From an uncultured Bacteroidales bacterium (GTDB lineage Bacteria > Bacteroidota > Bacteroidia > Bacteroidales > UBA932), in assembly GCA_944325505.1 (NCBI GenBank), contig CALVAJ010000007.1:1-64000 (forward strand): DNA of 64,000 bases. The letters run 5' to 3'. Shown piece by piece: positions 31,805-49,865 of this stretch. The notes beneath the pieces are model-generated. The model was given only the letters and a program-made list of their open reading frames with translations. It was not told the origin of the DNA and did not search any database. The stretch's first letter is position 1. Every line of letters begins with the position of its first letter. The position numbers and the translations under genes were made by a program.

Positions 31805-31898
31805 GGGAAAAAATCGTTAATTCGCGCTTTGAATTCTGACTTTGTCAAAGTTCACGGGACAATTTGGAAAAAATACTAAAAATCTGATTGTTAGAACA

Positions 31899-32873
31899 AT
31901 GGAAAAAGGACCTATTTCACAGTTCATTACACATCACTACCGCCATTTCAACTCTGCGGCTCTGGTAGACGCGGCAAAAGCATACGACGAGCACATGAAC
32001 AGAGGTGGAAAAATGATGTTGGCAATGGCCGGAGCCATGAGTACGGCCGAACTCGGACTCTCTCTCGCAGAGATGATCCGTCAGGACAAGTTCCAGATAG
32101 TTTCATGCTCGGCAAACAACCTTGAGGAAGATATCATGAACCTGGTGGCCCACTCCCACTACTACAGGGTACCGGGTTACAGGGACCTGACTCCTGCACA
32201 GGAAAAGGAACTCCTCGACAACCACATGAACCGTGTCACCGACACCTGTATCCCAGAGGAAGAGGCATTCCGCCGTCTCGAGCACCATCTTCTCGATGTA
32301 TGGAAAGACATGCAGGCAAAAGGTGAAAGGCTCCTTCCGTATCAGGTAATGTACAGGCTGCTCAGGAGCGGGGTTCTCGAGCAGTACTATGAAATCGACC
32401 CGAAAGACAGCTGGGTACTTGCAGCATGCGAGAAGAACATCCCTATCGTCGTGCCTGCATGGGAAGACAGCACCACCGGCAATATTTTCGCCGCACACTG
32501 CATCAAAGGCGAGCTCGACCCCCATATCATCAAGAACGGTATCGAGACAATGATGTTCCTGACCGACTGGTACAAGAACAACTCCGGCGGAGAAGGCGTA
32601 GGCTTCTTCCAGATCGGCGGCGGTACTGCGGGCGACTTCCCTATCTGCGTGGTTCCGATGATGGAGCAGGATCTGGGATGGACCGGTACTCCGCTCTGGA
32701 AATATTTCTGCCAGATCTCGGACAGCACCACCTCATACGGTTCATATTCAGGCGCAGTGCCTAACGAGAAAATCACCTGGGGCAAGCTGGATGTGGACAC
32801 CCCGAGGTTCATAGTGGAGTCCGATGCGACTATCGTGGCGCCGCTGATGTTCGCATATATTCTCGGCTGGTAA
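31899..32873 (+). CDS. Deoxyhypusine synthase family protein
   Basis: 324 residues from ATG 31899 (MEKGPISQFITHHYRHFN); an in-frame ATG at 31842 is too close to the divergent promoter. It shows the family NAD-binding and active-site segments: LAMAGAMSTAELGLSLAEMI, WEDSTTGNIFAAH, FFQIGGGTAGDFP, SYGSYSGAVPNEKITWGK. Lys296 in ITWGK corresponds to the lysine that forms the enzyme-butylimine intermediate in eukaryotic deoxyhypusine synthase. Bacteria have no eIF5A to modify, so bacterial members are thought to act on small polyamines (homospermidine-type chemistry) or an unknown acceptor. The neighbour, divergent lysA, is not informative. Ends 5 nt before a structured repeat. Confidence 0.9.
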   Translation: MEKGPISQFITHHYRHFNSAALVDAAKAYDEHMNRGGKMMLAMAGAMSTAELGLSLAEMIRQDKFQIVSCSANNLEEDIMNLVAHSHYYRVPGYRDLTPAQEKELLDNHMNRVTDTCIPEEEAFRRLEHHLLDVWKDMQAKGERLLPYQVMYRLLRSGVLEQYYEIDPKDSWVLAACEKNIPIVVPAWEDSTTGNIFAAHCIKGELDPHIIKNGIETMMFLTDWYKNNSGGEGVGFFQIGGGTAGDFPICVVPMMEQDLGWTGTPLWKYFCQISDSTTSYGSYSGAVPNEKITWGKLDVDTPRFIVESDATIVAPLMFAYILGW

Positions 32874-32878
32874 CCTAT

Positions 32879-32999
32879 CAGAATCAGATATAATGCTGAT
32901 TTCCGCGTTATGCCTGTTCCTCATATCATCATTACCTGCAGGTAACTCCGGTATTCGGAACGGCGCATGCCTTGAAATCACCTGTTATCTCTGATTCTG
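32879..32999. repeat. Structured intergenic element, copy A1
   Basis: 121 nt right after the deoxyhypusine-synthase-like gene. Outer perfect inverted repeat CAGAATCAG (32879-32887) / CTGATTCTG (32991-32999). Second stem GATTTC (32898-32903) / GAAATC (32974-32979). Inner perfect palindrome TTACCTGCAGGTAA (32932-32945), followed by CTCCGGTATTCG. The core (TTCCTCATATC..TCATTACC, GGTAACTCCGGTATTCG, GCATGCCTTGAAATC) recurs at 48861-48971 and, inverted, at 49001-49101 and 49129-49229, but the outer stem sequence is private to this copy. Confidence 0.8.
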
Positions 33000-33024
33000 C
33001 CATACAAGATTATCCTGGAAATAC

Positions 33025-33082: not shown

Positions 33083-33113
33083 TATTCCGGAGGATCGGCG
33101 GTTCTCCGGAATA
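33083..33113. terminator. Hairpin before the AraC-type gene
   Basis: Stem TATTCCGGAG (33083-33092) / CTCCGGAATA (33104-33113), 11-nt loop, followed by TTTAAG. Together with the repeats it fills most of 32874-33151. It could terminate transcription from the deoxyhypusine-synthase-like gene or lie in the leader of the AraC-type gene. Confidence 0.5.
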
Positions 33114-33151: not shown

Positions 33152-34321
33152 GTGAGTTTTTCGTATCTACTTGACACACAAGCTTTCCATCTTTATGCAC
33201 TGGTAGTGGCATCTACTTTGGCGCTGATACTCCTGCTTATCAGGATACCCAAGACCGAGTATGCAAAAAAACTCGCACGGTCGAAATACACAATAGCCAC
33301 CAGCTACATGATCGGGGCGTTTACATTCGGATACGCATTCTACAACGCAGATGCCCCGATGTACGAAGAATTCTCTACCATAGCCATGCTTATCGTGGTG
33401 GCATTCATCTCGATCATCGTATCGTTTTCACTGATAAACCTGCTGATGCCCAGGTTCATAGACGGAGGCAAGTTTCTTGTCAGCATATTTCTGGTTTTCG
33501 TAGCCAGCGTGATTCTGGTGGAATCCTTCTTTTCAGGGAATATGAGACTGCACAAGATAACCCTCTATACGGGCGTGGCGCTTTTCGTTGTCCAGAGCTG
33601 TTCACTGATAATAATCTTTGACCGGGCCTACAAGCGGTCTATCGGAATCCTGGAAAAGTACTACGATGAAGACGAGGAACACAAGATAAAATGGATAAGG
33701 TTCTGCTATATCCTTACCATGCTCACAGCCATGTTCATCCTGGTATATGTTTTCCTTCCGGACAAGGGCTTCATCAGGCTGTACATGTTCTTCTATATCC
33801 TGTACATGATCTATTTTGCAGGAAACTACATTTCGTTTCTCGGCAGCCACAAGCTTCTCCTGGATGCGGTAGGGCACTATGCGCTTTCTGAGCAGAATCC
33901 TATATTCCAGAAAAAAAAGAAATCGAGGCAGGGCGCAGGCAATAATCCCCGGAGCAGTAAGGAAGACGACAGTTTTGCCCTTCTGGGAAAGGCTCTGGAC
34001 AAATGGGTAAAGGAAAAACGTTTCCGCGAATACGACAAAAGCCGGGAAGAAACGGCTCGGGAACTCGGCACTACCAAGGAAGTCCTGCAGATGTACTTTA
34101 CAGACAGAATGGGCGTGGACTTCCGCAGCTGGAGGACAGAACTGAGAATCAGAGAAGCCAAGGACATGCTTCTGAAGCACAAGGACTACTCGATAAACTT
34201 CATCGCGGAAGCCGTAGGTTTCAGCGACCGTTCCAACTTCCACCGGCAGTTCTCCAAATCGGTAGGATGCTCTCCCAAGGAGTGGAGAGACACCGATGGT
34301 CATCCCGAACTGAGGGCATAA
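33152..34321 (+). CDS. Membrane-embedded AraC-family transcriptional regulator
   Basis: 389 residues starting at a GTG (33152). No ATG gives the first helix, and the first in-frame ATG loses one or two helices, so GTG is preferred. Seven hydrophobic helices (about residues 12-240; e.g. LYALVVASTLALILLLI, IAMLIVVAFISIIVSFSLI, LYMFFYILYMIYFAGNY) precede a Lys-rich linker. A C-terminal AraC helix-turn-helix follows (GTTKEVLQMYFTDRMGVDFRSW and INFIAEAVGFSDRSNFHRQFSKSVGCSPKEWR). Such a layout suggests a membrane receptor that binds DNA directly. Signal and target genes are unknown; it is a single gene bounded by hairpins. Confidence 0.85.
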   Translation: MSFSYLLDTQAFHLYALVVASTLALILLLIRIPKTEYAKKLARSKYTIATSYMIGAFTFGYAFYNADAPMYEEFSTIAMLIVVAFISIIVSFSLINLLMPRFIDGGKFLVSIFLVFVASVILVESFFSGNMRLHKITLYTGVALFVVQSCSLIIIFDRAYKRSIGILEKYYDEDEEHKIKWIRFCYILTMLTAMFILVYVFLPDKGFIRLYMFFYILYMIYFAGNYISFLGSHKLLLDAVGHYALSEQNPIFQKKKKSRQGAGNNPRSSKEDDSFALLGKALDKWVKEKRFREYDKSREETARELGTTKEVLQMYFTDRMGVDFRSWRTELRIREAKDMLLKHKDYSINFIAEAVGFSDRSNFHRQFSKSVGCSPKEWRDTDGHPELRA

Positions 34322-45794: not shown

Positions 45795-47552
45795 ATGAGC
45801 AAATCAACTGGAAAGGTTACGGGAATCGTTTCCAACCTCGTCACAGTGCAGACCGACGGACCGGTATCGCAGAATGAAATCTGCTATATCAAGATCGGAG
45901 ACACGAAACTGATGGCCGAGGTCATCAAGGTAAACGGGAAGAACGCCGCAGTACAGGTGTTCGAAAGTACCCGGGGACTGAAAAACGGCAATGAAGTGGA
46001 ATTCGAGGACAAGATGCTTGAGGCTACCCTCGGCCCCGGACTGCTGTCAAGCTGCTACGACGGACTGCAGAACGACCTCACCACCATGACCGGAGTATTC
46101 CTCAAAAGAGGAGAGTACACCGACCCTCTGGACCACGGGAAACTTTGGGACTTCACCCCTATCGCAAAACCAGGGGACAAGGTAATAGCCGCAGACTGGC
46201 TCGGAGAAGTCAAGGAAGGATGGCTGCCGCACAAGATAATGGTGCCGTTCTCATTCAAAGGGGAATATACTGTAAAATCCGTAGTTCCCGCCGGACAATA
46301 CAATATCGACACGGTCATAGCCGTCCTCACTTCGGAAGATGGTGAGGATGTCAATGTGACCATGACACAGAAATGGCCGGTGAAGGTGCCGATCAAAGGC
46401 TACAAAGAAAAGCCGAGGCCGAACAGGATAATGGAGACAGGGGTACGCGTCATCGATACGTTGGACCCTATCGCAGAAGGCGGGACAGGATTCATCCCCG
46501 GGCCGTTCGGATGCGGAAAGACAGTGCTCCAGCATGCCATCGCAAAGCAGGGGGACGCTGAAGTCATCGTGATGGCCGCCTGCGGAGAGCGTGCTAACGA
46601 GGTTGTGGAAATCTTTACCGAGTTCCCTGAACTCATCGACCCTCATACGGGACGACACCTGATGGAAAGGACAACCATCATATGCAACACTTCCAACATG
46701 CCTGTGGCAGCCCGCGAGGCATCGGTCTACACGGCGATGACCATATGCGAATACTACAGGGCGATGGGTATGAAAGTCCTTCTGCTGGCCGACTCCACAT
46801 CACGCTGGGCCCAGGCTCTCCGAGAGATGAGTAACCGTATGGAGGAGCTTCCAGGCGCCGATGCGTTCCCGGTAGACCTTTCAGCCATCATTTCAAGTTT
46901 CTACGCCCGTGCAGGCATGGTAGTGCTGAACAACGGAAAGACCGGGTCTGTAACTTTCATCGGTACGGTCTCCCCTGCCGGAGGTAACCTCAAGGAGCCT
47001 GTGACCGAATCCACAAAGAAGGCGGCACGGTGCTTCTATGCACTCGAGCAGAACAGGGCCGACAAGAAAAGATACCCGGCGGTGAATCCGATAGACTCAT
47101 ACTCCAAATATCTGGAATACCCTGAAATCCGCCGGTACCTGTCAGATACCGTGACCGAAGGCTGGGTGGAAATGGTGGAAAAGACCAAGAACATCATCCG
47201 CAAAGGAAAGGAAGCCAACGAGCAGATCAACATCCTGGGTGATGACGGAGTCCCGATGAGCTACCACGAAATGTTCTGGAAATCAGAGCTGGTAGACTTT
47301 GTCATCCTCCAGCAGGACGCTTTTGACCCAGTGGACAGCGTCACTCCGATGGACAGGCAGAGATACATGCTTGAACTGGTTCTGGAGATCTGCGACAGGG
47401 AATTCACATTCGACGACTACGAGAAATGCCGCGACTACTTCAAAGAGCTTATCAACCTGCTCAGACAGATGAACTACTCGGAGTTCAAGAGCGACAATTT
47501 CAACAAATTCCACGAACAACTCGATAAACTACTTGACAATGGCAACAACTAA
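45795..47552 (+). CDS. ntpA: V-type ATPase catalytic subunit A
   Basis: 585 residues. Walker A GPFGCGKTVLQHAIAKQ at about residue 236, catalytic Glu in CGERANEVVE, Walker B in VLLLADSTSRWAQALREMSNRMEELPGADAFP. The ~90-residue non-homologous insertion before the P-loop typical of V/A-type A subunits is present (GDKVIAADWLGEVKEGWLPHKIMVPF). Its end overlaps the start of subunit B by 14 nt. Confidence 0.97.
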   Translation: MSKSTGKVTGIVSNLVTVQTDGPVSQNEICYIKIGDTKLMAEVIKVNGKNAAVQVFESTRGLKNGNEVEFEDKMLEATLGPGLLSSCYDGLQNDLTTMTGVFLKRGEYTDPLDHGKLWDFTPIAKPGDKVIAADWLGEVKEGWLPHKIMVPFSFKGEYTVKSVVPAGQYNIDTVIAVLTSEDGEDVNVTMTQKWPVKVPIKGYKEKPRPNRIMETGVRVIDTLDPIAEGGTGFIPGPFGCGKTVLQHAIAKQGDAEVIVMAACGERANEVVEIFTEFPELIDPHTGRHLMERTTIICNTSNMPVAAREASVYTAMTICEYYRAMGMKVLLLADSTSRWAQALREMSNRMEELPGADAFPVDLSAIISSFYARAGMVVLNNGKTGSVTFIGTVSPAGGNLKEPVTESTKKAARCFYALEQNRADKKRYPAVNPIDSYSKYLEYPEIRRYLSDTVTEGWVEMVEKTKNIIRKGKEANEQINILGDDGVPMSYHEMFWKSELVDFVILQQDAFDPVDSVTPMDRQRYMLELVLEICDREFTFDDYEKCRDYFKELINLLRQMNYSEFKSDNFNKFHEQLDKLLDNGNN

Positions 47553-48864
47553 GGCATTTCAAAAGACATATACGCAGCTGGAAGCCATCACCAAGGCGAC
47601 GGTATCCCTGAAAGCGAAAGGAGTTTCAAACGATGAGCTCGCCGTAGTGGACGGGAAACTCGCACAGGTGGTGAAGACCAAGGGTGACATGGTGACCCTG
47701 CAGGTGTTCTCCGGCACGGAAGGCATCCCGACCGATGCAGAGGTATCATTCCTCGGCGAACCTCCTACCCTGAAAGTCAGCGACCAGCTGGCAGGCCGTT
47801 TCTTCAATGCATACGGGCAGCCGATAGACGGTGGCCCTGAAATCGAAGGAGAGGAAAGGCAGATCGGAGGCCCGTCCGTAAACCCTTACAAGAGAAGGCA
47901 GCCTTCTCAGCTGATCCCTACCGGTATCGCCGGTATCGACCTGAACAACACACTGGTATCAGGACAGAAAATCCCTTTCTTCGCTGACCCTGACCAGCCT
48001 TACAATAATGTAATGGCAATGGTGGCCCTCCGTGCCGATGTGGACAAGATCATACTCGGAGGCATGGGTCTCTCAAACGACGACTACCTGTATTTCAGGC
48101 ATGAATTCGAGTCAGCCGGAGCATTGGAGAAGATCATAAGTTTCGTGAACACTACGGAACAGCCGCCTGTAGAGAGGCTTCTTATCCCTGACATGGCACT
48201 GACCGCAGCGGAATATTTCGCCGTAGAGAAGAACGAGAAAGTGCTGGTGCTGCTTACGGACATGACGCTTTACGCGGATGCGCTCAGTATCGTGAGCAAC
48301 CGTATGGACCAGATCCCATCCAAGGACTCCATGCCTGGATCCCTCTACTCCGACCTCGCAAAGATATACGAGAAAGCGGTACAGCTGCCTGACGGCGGAT
48401 CAATCACCATCATAGCCGTGACTACACTGAATGACGGAGACATCACGCACGCTATCCCGGACAACACAGGATACATCACTGAAGGCCAGCTTTATCTGCG
48501 AGCAGACCCGGATTCAGGAAAAATCATCATCGACCCGTTCCGTTCGCTTTCCCGACTCAAACAGCTCGTAATCGGGAAACAGACCCGCGAAGACCACAGC
48601 CAGGTGATGAACGCCGCTGTCCGTCTTTACGCGGATGCCCAGAATGCCAAGACCAAGCTGGAGAACGGTTTCGACCTGAGCGACTACGACCTGCGCTGTC
48701 TGGACTACGCCAAAGAGTACGCTACCAGACTCCTCGCCATCGACGTGAACATCAAGATAGACGAAATGCTCGACACGGCATGGGAACTCTTCGCGAAGTA
48801 TTTCTCAAAGGCTGAAACCGGTATAAAACAGGCCTTCATCGACAAATACTGGCCGGTGAATTGA
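47539..48864 (+). CDS. ntpB: V-type ATPase regulatory subunit B
   Basis: 441 residues from ATG 47539 (MATTKAFQKTYTQLEAITKA). There is no Walker A loop: the equivalent place reads TGIAGIDLNNTLVSGQKIPFFADPDQPY, as in all B subunits. VLVLLTDMTLYADALSIVSNRMDQIPSKDSMPGSLYSDLA is the conserved interface. It begins inside the end of ntpA (14-nt overlap), so the two are translationally coupled. The stop codon lies within the outer stem of the structured element A2. Confidence 0.96.
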   Translation: MATTKAFQKTYTQLEAITKATVSLKAKGVSNDELAVVDGKLAQVVKTKGDMVTLQVFSGTEGIPTDAEVSFLGEPPTLKVSDQLAGRFFNAYGQPIDGGPEIEGEERQIGGPSVNPYKRRQPSQLIPTGIAGIDLNNTLVSGQKIPFFADPDQPYNNVMAMVALRADVDKIILGGMGLSNDDYLYFRHEFESAGALEKIISFVNTTEQPPVERLLIPDMALTAAEYFAVEKNEKVLVLLTDMTLYADALSIVSNRMDQIPSKDSMPGSLYSDLAKIYEKAVQLPDGGSITIIAVTTLNDGDITHAIPDNTGYITEGQLYLRADPDSGKIIIDPFRSLSRLKQLVIGKQTREDHSQVMNAAVRLYADAQNAKTKLENGFDLSDYDLRCLDYAKEYATRLLAIDVNIKIDEMLDTAWELFAKYFSKAETGIKQAFIDKYWPVN

Positions 48865-48971
48865 ATGCAGTGATGATTTCTTCGTTATGCTCATCTCTCA
48901 ATCCTCACAACCCCAAAGGTTGCTCCGGTATTCGAGATATCGCATGCCTTGAAATCCTCTACTGCATTCAA
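48861..48971. repeat. Structured intergenic element, copy A2
   Basis: 111 nt beginning at the ntpB stop codon. Outer perfect inverted repeat TTGAATGCAGT (48861-48871) / ACTGCATTCAA (48961-48971), second stem GATTTC (48875-48880) / GAAATC (48951-48956), inner hairpin CAACC-ccaaa-GGTTG (48908-48922). Core similarity to copy A1 is strong (CGTTATGC, GCTCCGGTATTCG, CGCATGCCTTGAAATC). The inner stem has changed from TTACC/GGTAA to CAACC/GGTTG with pairing kept. It opens a 392-nt gene-free stretch (48865-49256). Confidence 0.8.
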
Positions 48972-49000
48972 TTCTCCTCCCTACATTCCGGAAAGGAATA

Positions 49001-49101
49001 TTTTTAGGTTATTTTCGAAGAGAATAAGGAATATGAAATGACGAGTACCGGAGTTACCTGCGGGTAATGAGGATATGAGGAATGAATATGACGAAGTTAT
49101 C
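49001..49101. repeat. Direct repeat copy 1 carrying inverted element B1
   Basis: 101 bp repeated at 49129-49229 (offset 128, about ten differences). It contains the structured-element core in the opposite orientation to A1/A2: TACCGGAGTTACC-tgcg-GGTAATGAGGATATGAGGAAT, with inner stem TTACC/GGTAA at 49054-49067. Unlike the other three copies it has no perfect outer inverted repeat. Confidence 0.8.
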
Positions 49102-49128
49102 AACGGAAATACAAAATTAAACCACGAC

Positions 49129-49237
49129 TTTTTAGATTATTTTCGAAGAGAACAAGGAATATGAAATGACGAATACCGGAGTTACCTGTCGGTAATGAGG
49201 ATATGAGGAATGAATATGACGAAATTATCTTCGAAAA
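49129..49237. repeat. Direct repeat copy 2 carrying inverted element B2
   Basis: Second copy of the 101-bp repeat (49129-49229). Inner hairpin TTACC-tgtc-GGTAA at 49182-49195. It is flanked by a perfect 10-bp inverted repeat TTTTCGAAGA (49140-49149) / TCTTCGAAAA (49228-49237). The right arm ends 19 nt before the ntpD start, so a folded RNA would sit just upstream of its translation start. Confidence 0.8.
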
Positions 49238-49256
49238 GAAACAAAAAGAGAAAGAT

Positions 49257-49861
49257 ATGGCAATTAAATTTCAATATAACAAAACTGCGCTGACCGCCCT
49301 GGGAAAGCAGCTCAAGATGAGGCAGAACGCACTCCCTACCTTGAAGAACAAGGAGTCCGCACTGCGTCTTGAGGTGCGCAAGGCCAAGGCTTACTCGCAG
49401 AAACTTATAGATGATCTTGATGCCTCACTGAAAAGATATGACTACCTCGCAGCACTGTGGAACGAGTTCCAGCCGAGCCTGATTTCCATCAGGGATATCG
49501 ATCTGGTAACGGTGAAAGTGGCAGGAGTGAAGACACCTGAGCTGAAAAGTATCGACTATGAGATACATGAGTTCAATGCATTTACCAAGCCGGCATGGTT
49601 CGCTGACGGAGTAGCCATATTGAAAGAACTTTCCAGACTCGGAATCGAATCCGAAGTCTATATGGAAAAGAGCAGGATACTGGACTTCCAGAGGAAAAAG
49701 ACCACGCAGAAAGTGAACCTCTATGAGAAAGTACAGATACCCGGCTATCAGGAGGCCATCAGAAAGATCAAGCGCTATATGGAAGACGAGGAGAACCTGA
49801 GCAAGGCGGCTTCCAAGATAGTGAAGCAGAGACATGAACTGGAAGAAGAGGAGGCACTGTC

Positions 49862-49865
<4 letters not shown>
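49257..49865 (+). CDS. ntpD: V-type ATPase subunit D (central rotor)
   Basis: 202 residues from ATG 49257 (MAIKFQYNKTALTALGKQLKMRQNALPTLKNKESALRLEV). An in-frame ATG at 49203 falls inside the repeat and would add 18 residues foreign to the family, so it is rejected. Two long helices at both ends, the last being VQIPGYQEAIRKIKRYMEDEENLSKAASKIVKQRHELEE, form the rotor coiled coil. Its TGA overlaps the ATG of ntpI (ATGA at 49862). Confidence 0.92.

Follow-up and report, generated by a model that had tools for sequence, protein, structure and literature searches.

Four intervals of the window, by which we mean the whole 64,000-nt stretch of Bacteroidales DNA analysed here, probably represent a mobile, non-autonomous, MITE-like hairpin that is found in many Bacteroidales. 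The copies (A1, A2, B1, and B2) each form a single long hairpin with imperfections, in which an outer stem encloses a core of about 82 nt. The arms change together around a constant folded centre, as if the shape of the fold were what is kept. Mobility is supported by the many, patchily distributed copies and by the presence differences and erosion seen at a V-ATPase locus.

The four copies and their fold

A covariance model (R1), run with filters off, finds exactly four copies in the window at 82.2-94.4 bits, and the next match scores 17.2 bits. R1 rests on eight of 11 copies, including A1, B1, and B2; alignment shifts led to the exclusion of A2, L013, and L015. The pattern ACCGSAG-N13..17-TGAGGAT occurs three times in the window against 0.01 expected, and misses A1, which reads TGATGAT. 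The sequences and coordinates given for the four copies in the original prediction match the window as stated, as does the inversion of the B copies relative to the A copies. The V-ATPase subunit B gene has its stop codon (48862-48864) within the first outer arm of A2 (48855-48871). A separate short inverted repeat, TATTCCGGAGGATCG/CGGTTCTCCGGAATA, lies after A1 at 33083-33113.

Table 1. Window positions of the four copies, the B2 apical stem, and the adjacent genes.
Feature	Position	Strand	Details	Score or domain
Copy A1	32877..33001	(-)	core 32898-32979; outer arms 32879-32893 and 32985-32999	R1 94.4 bits
Copy A2	48855..48977	(-)	core 48875-48956; outer arms 48855-48871 and 48961-48977	R1 82.2 bits
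Copy B1	48999..49123	(+)	core 49020-49101; in tandem with B2; closing stem imperfect	R1 91.3 bits, R2 99.8 bits
Copy B2	49127..49251	(+)	core 49148-49229	R1 93.7 bits, R2 120.1 bits
B2 apical stem	49182-49186 and 49191-49195		TTACC / GGTAA	
V-type ATPase subunit B gene	47533..48864	(+)	upstream of A2	PF00006, PF22919
V-type ATPase subunit D gene	49257..49865	(+)	downstream of B2	PF01813
Deoxyhypusine synthase-like gene	31842..32873	(+)	ends just before A1	PF01916
AraC-type regulator gene	33152..34321	(+)	after A1	PF12833, PF00165

The outer arms are 15 nt long and 93% complementary in A1, and 17 nt long and 94% complementary in A2; the outer stem of B2 is 10 bp and perfect, and B1 has no perfect closing stem. 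Of the earlier claim of three perfect private outer stems, the private stems therefore stand and their perfection in three copies does not. The change of TTACC/GGTAA to CAACC/GGTTG in A2, with pairing kept, is real. Folding z-scores on the two strands are -7.6 and -6.8 for A1 and -7.5 and -9.2 for A2 (0 of 200 shuffles on either strand in both cases), and -2.7 and -3.2 for B2 (1 of 200 on either strand). The folding of B1 is not significant (z of +0.7 on one strand, and -1.7 with 12 of 200 shuffles on the other). In all four copies the lower-energy fold falls on one and the same element strand, which we call sense; it is the minus strand for A1 and A2 and the plus strand for B1 and B2.

From the outside inward, the outer stem private to each copy is followed by a loop, AAGG opposite ACGNNG, then by a short stem of free sequence and a middle stem that in the source genus often has tandem G-A mismatches and a bulged A. 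Further in come a second loop, CGNAG opposite TGAGNAT, and an apical stem, six pairs long and capped by a loop of about four nt. The stems are free in sequence but paired, while the mismatched loops are near-invariant among 93 distinct sequences; we attribute the near-fixed loops to selection on the fold. The sense strand carries the purine mismatches and a near-fixed G-U pair. In a strand test, G-U pairs outnumbered A-C mismatches by 158 to 34, an excess that shrinks to 44 against 34, too little to mark a strand, without two special pairs. The tRNA yardstick (39 G-U among 479 pairs in 22 tRNAs) is biased, as ARAGORN draws standard pairs only.

Copies, ends, and target duplications

The source genome has 36 model matches at E<=1, and 34 of them reach at least 33 bits; two more copies came from a later locus search, one of them in tandem upstream of tRNA-Val. 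Ten copies are young and near-identical, with the consensus terminal repeat GAGGGTGACTCAAAAGG, and this young subfamily also has core-less short forms and a bare GAGGGTGACTCAAAAGG-repeat palindrome in the same genome (L186, L189, L191, L199, L195). Like a MITE, the element is short, non-coding, and present in many copies (34 in the source genome). Across the order, 94 of 393 genomes have a match at E<=0.001; the copy numbers from this search are lower bounds, as no more than 11 candidates were scored in each genome. Within the genus, five of 36 other genomes have a match at E<=0.1, one of them only at 0.078. Two genomes of the genus, G061 and G404, have matches in the order-wide search, and model R2 finds no copy in 200 kb of a third, G016. 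Named phage and plasmid records gave no element match. An occurrence on viral contigs was considered and set aside: at least 120 stretches fit a loose pattern, but none of the 80 listed loci has a model match, which looks like chance.

Two further arrangements were seen. Tandem arrays of three copies, spaced by about 110-125 bp, occur in L066 and L115 (G404), like B1/B2. On contig C10 of the source genome (L010, 1602-1709) a copy adjoins, on the opposite strand, a gene of the small SRP RNA family of Bacteroidales (RF04183, 114 bits).

At the V-ATPase locus the gap between the subunit B and D genes is mostly short in relatives (Candidatus Cryptobacteroides, Bacteroidales bacterium). B-type copies occur in this gap in the window and L230, with two in each, and in L214, L217, L222, L252, and L225, where the contig end interrupts the copy. 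L280 has a diverged copy, short or truncated forms are found in L215, L216, L233, and L239, and remnants were recognised by eye in L218, L221, L229, L231, and L235. A2 is present only in the window and L215. The remaining loci of the 80 compared at this gap have no copy at E<=0.1 with R2, whose only other match across them is A1 in the window. The nearest relative by subunit B gene has 88% DNA identity, and the subunit B tree places the window in a supported group with L214, L215, and L217. Between species the closing stem differs and stays paired, as in TTTTCGAAGA/TCTTCGAAAA of B2 and TTTTTGGCGA/TCGTCAAAAA of L217. The simplest reading is a single old B insertion eroding in many lineages; repeated insertion at a V-ATPase hot spot is possible. 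We rejected the idea that the core alone entered a palindrome already present where A2 stands, as L214, L216, and L217 have no such palindrome there. The ntpB-ntpD gap itself looks like a site where repeats collect, since other dispersed repeats, for example TGTCATTTCGACCGTAGTGGAGAAATC and TTCAGAATGACAG arrays, stand there in relatives (L226, L236-L238, L241, L246, L256, L260, L264, L270, L279, L288).

Where ends could be set (G126, G340, G210, G197, and nine single copies), by patterns chosen by eye, the element is 120-144 bp long and of several types. In G126, G340, and the nine single copies elsewhere it measures 142-144 bp, mostly AGTG...CACT, and 14 of 19 copies have an exact 4-bp target duplication. 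The G210 element is 140-141 bp long and reads GAGTCC...GGACTC or nearly so, with an exact 6-bp duplication in three of six copies; the G197 element, AGGGG...CCCG, is 120 bp long and has an exact 5-bp duplication in three of four. In these counts L116 (no ends) and L112 (151 bp, doubtful ends) are both misses. In the 4-bp type the outer stem has the right terminal repeat as its 3' arm, which pairs with a second, internal copy, and the left repeat lies further out. We recognised no target duplication beside the window copies, and none by eye in G350 and G414. The elements of these last two genomes (L118-L133) have an extra 5' hairpin followed by T, like an intrinsic terminator.

Autonomous ISNCY-family transposons (NF033593) with similar ends and 4-bp duplications are found in G340, G126, G082, and G073. 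Their ends, clear in four of the eight distinct loci examined, are of two kinds and resemble both repeat sequences of the 4-bp-type element; unlike the element, the ISNCY transposons examined lack the core. No autonomous partner was found for the 5- and 6-bp types, and the source genome has no ISNCY and no DDE_Tnp_1 match. Neither group holds up as the general mobiliser: ISNCY is present in 18 of the 94 core-bearing genomes and in 34 of the 299 others (p = 0.057, not significant), and DDE_Tnp_1 occurs in seven of 12 genomes, with no match in G000, G350, G414, G197, and G045.

We infer, by analogy with these elements, what moved the window copies: they would have been moved in trans by DDE transposases. 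The same core is found in elements with different terminal repeats and with 4-, 5-, or 6-bp duplications. Because it rides such different ends and duplication sizes, it may be kept through recognition of one folded strand, RNA or single-stranded DNA, by something other than the transposase. A tentative and bolder suggestion, which we think possible but would not favour, is that the core is a selfish folded nucleic acid, dependent on a host factor, that has moved among transposon ends of no common origin within Bacteroidales, with three or more types of terminal repeat and duplication, its arms being recopied as perfect complements, one from the other.

Two further observations count against the MITE-like reading, besides the unrecognised target duplications of the window copies and the ISNCY and DDE_Tnp_1 results above. 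Several species retain B-type copies at one and the same V-ATPase site. What is more, six copies, from three genomes, stop 20-21 nt short of the first base of a tRNA gene and run in its sense: L065, L066, and L068 in the source genome, two in L076 (G031), and L077 (G024). The G031 copies precede tRNA-Tyr and tRNA-Gly in one tRNA cluster. Such placement is not predicted by random insertion.

Covariation of the arms and other explanations

The covariance-model search yields tens of further copies with strong covariation at inner and outer stems, an outcome that the original prediction had named as support. Over 95 hits (93 distinct, from many genomes) the core covariation score, inflated like the others given here by related sequences, is 0.627, against 0.183 in shuffles and at most 0.096 for slid structures; A5 was fitted to the R1 structure and favours it. 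Two-sided changes occupy 596 cells in these hits versus 164 in shuffles; they touch 25 of 27 pairs, which is barely above shuffles (23.2, with 8 of 500 reaching 25). For eight copies the score is 0.500 against 0.188 in shuffles, and for 22 B-type copies, arms included, it is 0.375 against 0.166.

Own-arm pairing was summed over 30 copies of the source genome and reached -592 kcal/mol, versus -223 when partners were permuted (sd 26, best -322). None of 10,000 permutations was as good, so that the complementarity is indeed preserved beyond chance, as had been claimed. The own partner fits better than any other in 16 of the 30, and six copies (L041, L042, L055, L057, L058, L067) pair weakly with their own arm, above -10 kcal/mol.

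Covariation alone is no proof of selection, since perfect palindromes can also be maintained by hairpin-templated repair. The arms might then be complementary by mutation alone, one arm being copied from the other with no selection on structure. We consider this unlikely, though it could account for part of the data. In nine of the ten young copies (L048 was excluded) there are 11 two-sided Watson-Crick changes, several of them double transversions, where the null mean is 4.6 (3 of 5,000 shuffles reach 11), and half-element deletions at several V-ATPase sites indicate that the fold is not guarded there. However, the same nine copies hold 35 one-sided cells and three two-sided cells that do not pair, and repair alone should have paired the mismatched loops, which it has not done in the 93 distinct sequences. 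For the mobile hairpin that we favour, the arms would be complementary through selection on the fold, probably helped by hairpin-templated repair; we infer that both act.

The strand asymmetry brings up a cis-acting RNA element, a leader or processing signal serving adjacent genes. One strand is marked by the purine mismatches and the G-U pair, coding starts follow closely behind the B copies, and the six tRNA-adjacent copies, which would suit a local RNA role, share the sense of the tRNAs that they precede. On the other hand, the neighbouring genes are functionally unrelated and most genomes of the same genus are without the element. Gene orientation, too, is mixed around the 73 copies with both neighbours within 400 nt, which speaks against a general RNA role: 22 copies have flanking genes that run with the element, 25 against it, 23 converging on it, and three diverging, by simple ORF calls and with several copies from the same genome. 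A role of this kind is improbable on balance.

REP and ERIC sequences are imperfect hairpins between genes, and REPs are dependent on Y1 transposases. An element like those of REP/RAYT systems, in which a Y1 (HUH) transposase moves a hairpin of single-stranded DNA, would fit the imperfect, one-strand-marked hairpins found here, which are intergenic, in many copies, and often behind genes. However, Y1_Tnp is present in 26 of 30 copy-bearing genomes versus 23 of 30 others tested; copy-rich G081, G097, G350, and G414 are without it, and the source genome has only three weak matches. The terminal repeats with target duplications in other genomes are, to our knowledge, unlike REPs. This explanation is very improbable, and with it the DNA hairpin used by a recombinase that had been offered earlier finds no support as far as a Y1/HUH partner is concerned, as Y1_Tnp presence does not track copies. 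Intrinsic terminators can hardly be entertained: copies often lie close behind stop codons, but neither window locus has a terminator-like site (a G+C-rich stem and then a T run), and A2, B1, and B2 stand between two V-ATPase genes of the same orientation.

The preferred reading, a MITE-like mobile hairpin, also alters one contrast drawn originally, that of a selected structure as opposed to a plain repeat. The element is a dispersed mobile repeat as well: its presence varies between close species, and elsewhere it has terminal repeats, target duplications, and transposons with similar ends.

Relation to known elements and significance

ERIC, REP, and similar palindromic repeats share with this element the form of imperfect intergenic hairpins; it differs from REPs in that Y1 transposases do not track it. 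MITEs have been described in Bacteroidota, namely MITE239, MITE464/PgRS, and BrickBuilt of P. gingivalis (PMC4596501) and MITECca01 of Cardinium (PMC9769881). In the available text of these papers they are, like the present element, short, non-coding, intergenic, and in many copies; they also have IS-like terminal inverted repeats, as the present element does in other genomes. They appear there as species- or strain-level elements, whereas the present one joins a single covarying core to several end and duplication types in many genera; by those descriptions it is set apart.

Rfam gave no match at gathering score in the window. In E-value mode over 14 loci, the only match above gathering was the neighbouring SRP RNA, and two weak matches that touch elements (22.8 and 17.9 bits) are far below threshold. 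The statement that no described element has this core thus holds for Rfam families at threshold; it is less secure for the candidate RNAs of PMC8040213 (HMP2_4205, HMP2_1032, and others), which may include the element unnamed. As far as its available descriptions go, these are palindromic, 80-132 bp long, and from Bacteroidetes, as here, and identity with one of them is possible. In the literature consulted, PMC8040213, PMC2864571, PMC9769881, and PMC4596501 included, we found no description of the core.

On this reading Bacteroidales would have a small and widespread mobile element, present in roughly one in four of the genomes sampled, yet absent from Rfam, and very high in copy number in some genomes, judging by the 288 matches to its own terminal repeat in G210. 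A fold that outlives changes of transposase would pose a testable question, namely what recognises the core. Covariation as proof of RNA function is a standing difficulty, and the element may offer a natural case for separating selection on structure from hairpin-templated mutation.
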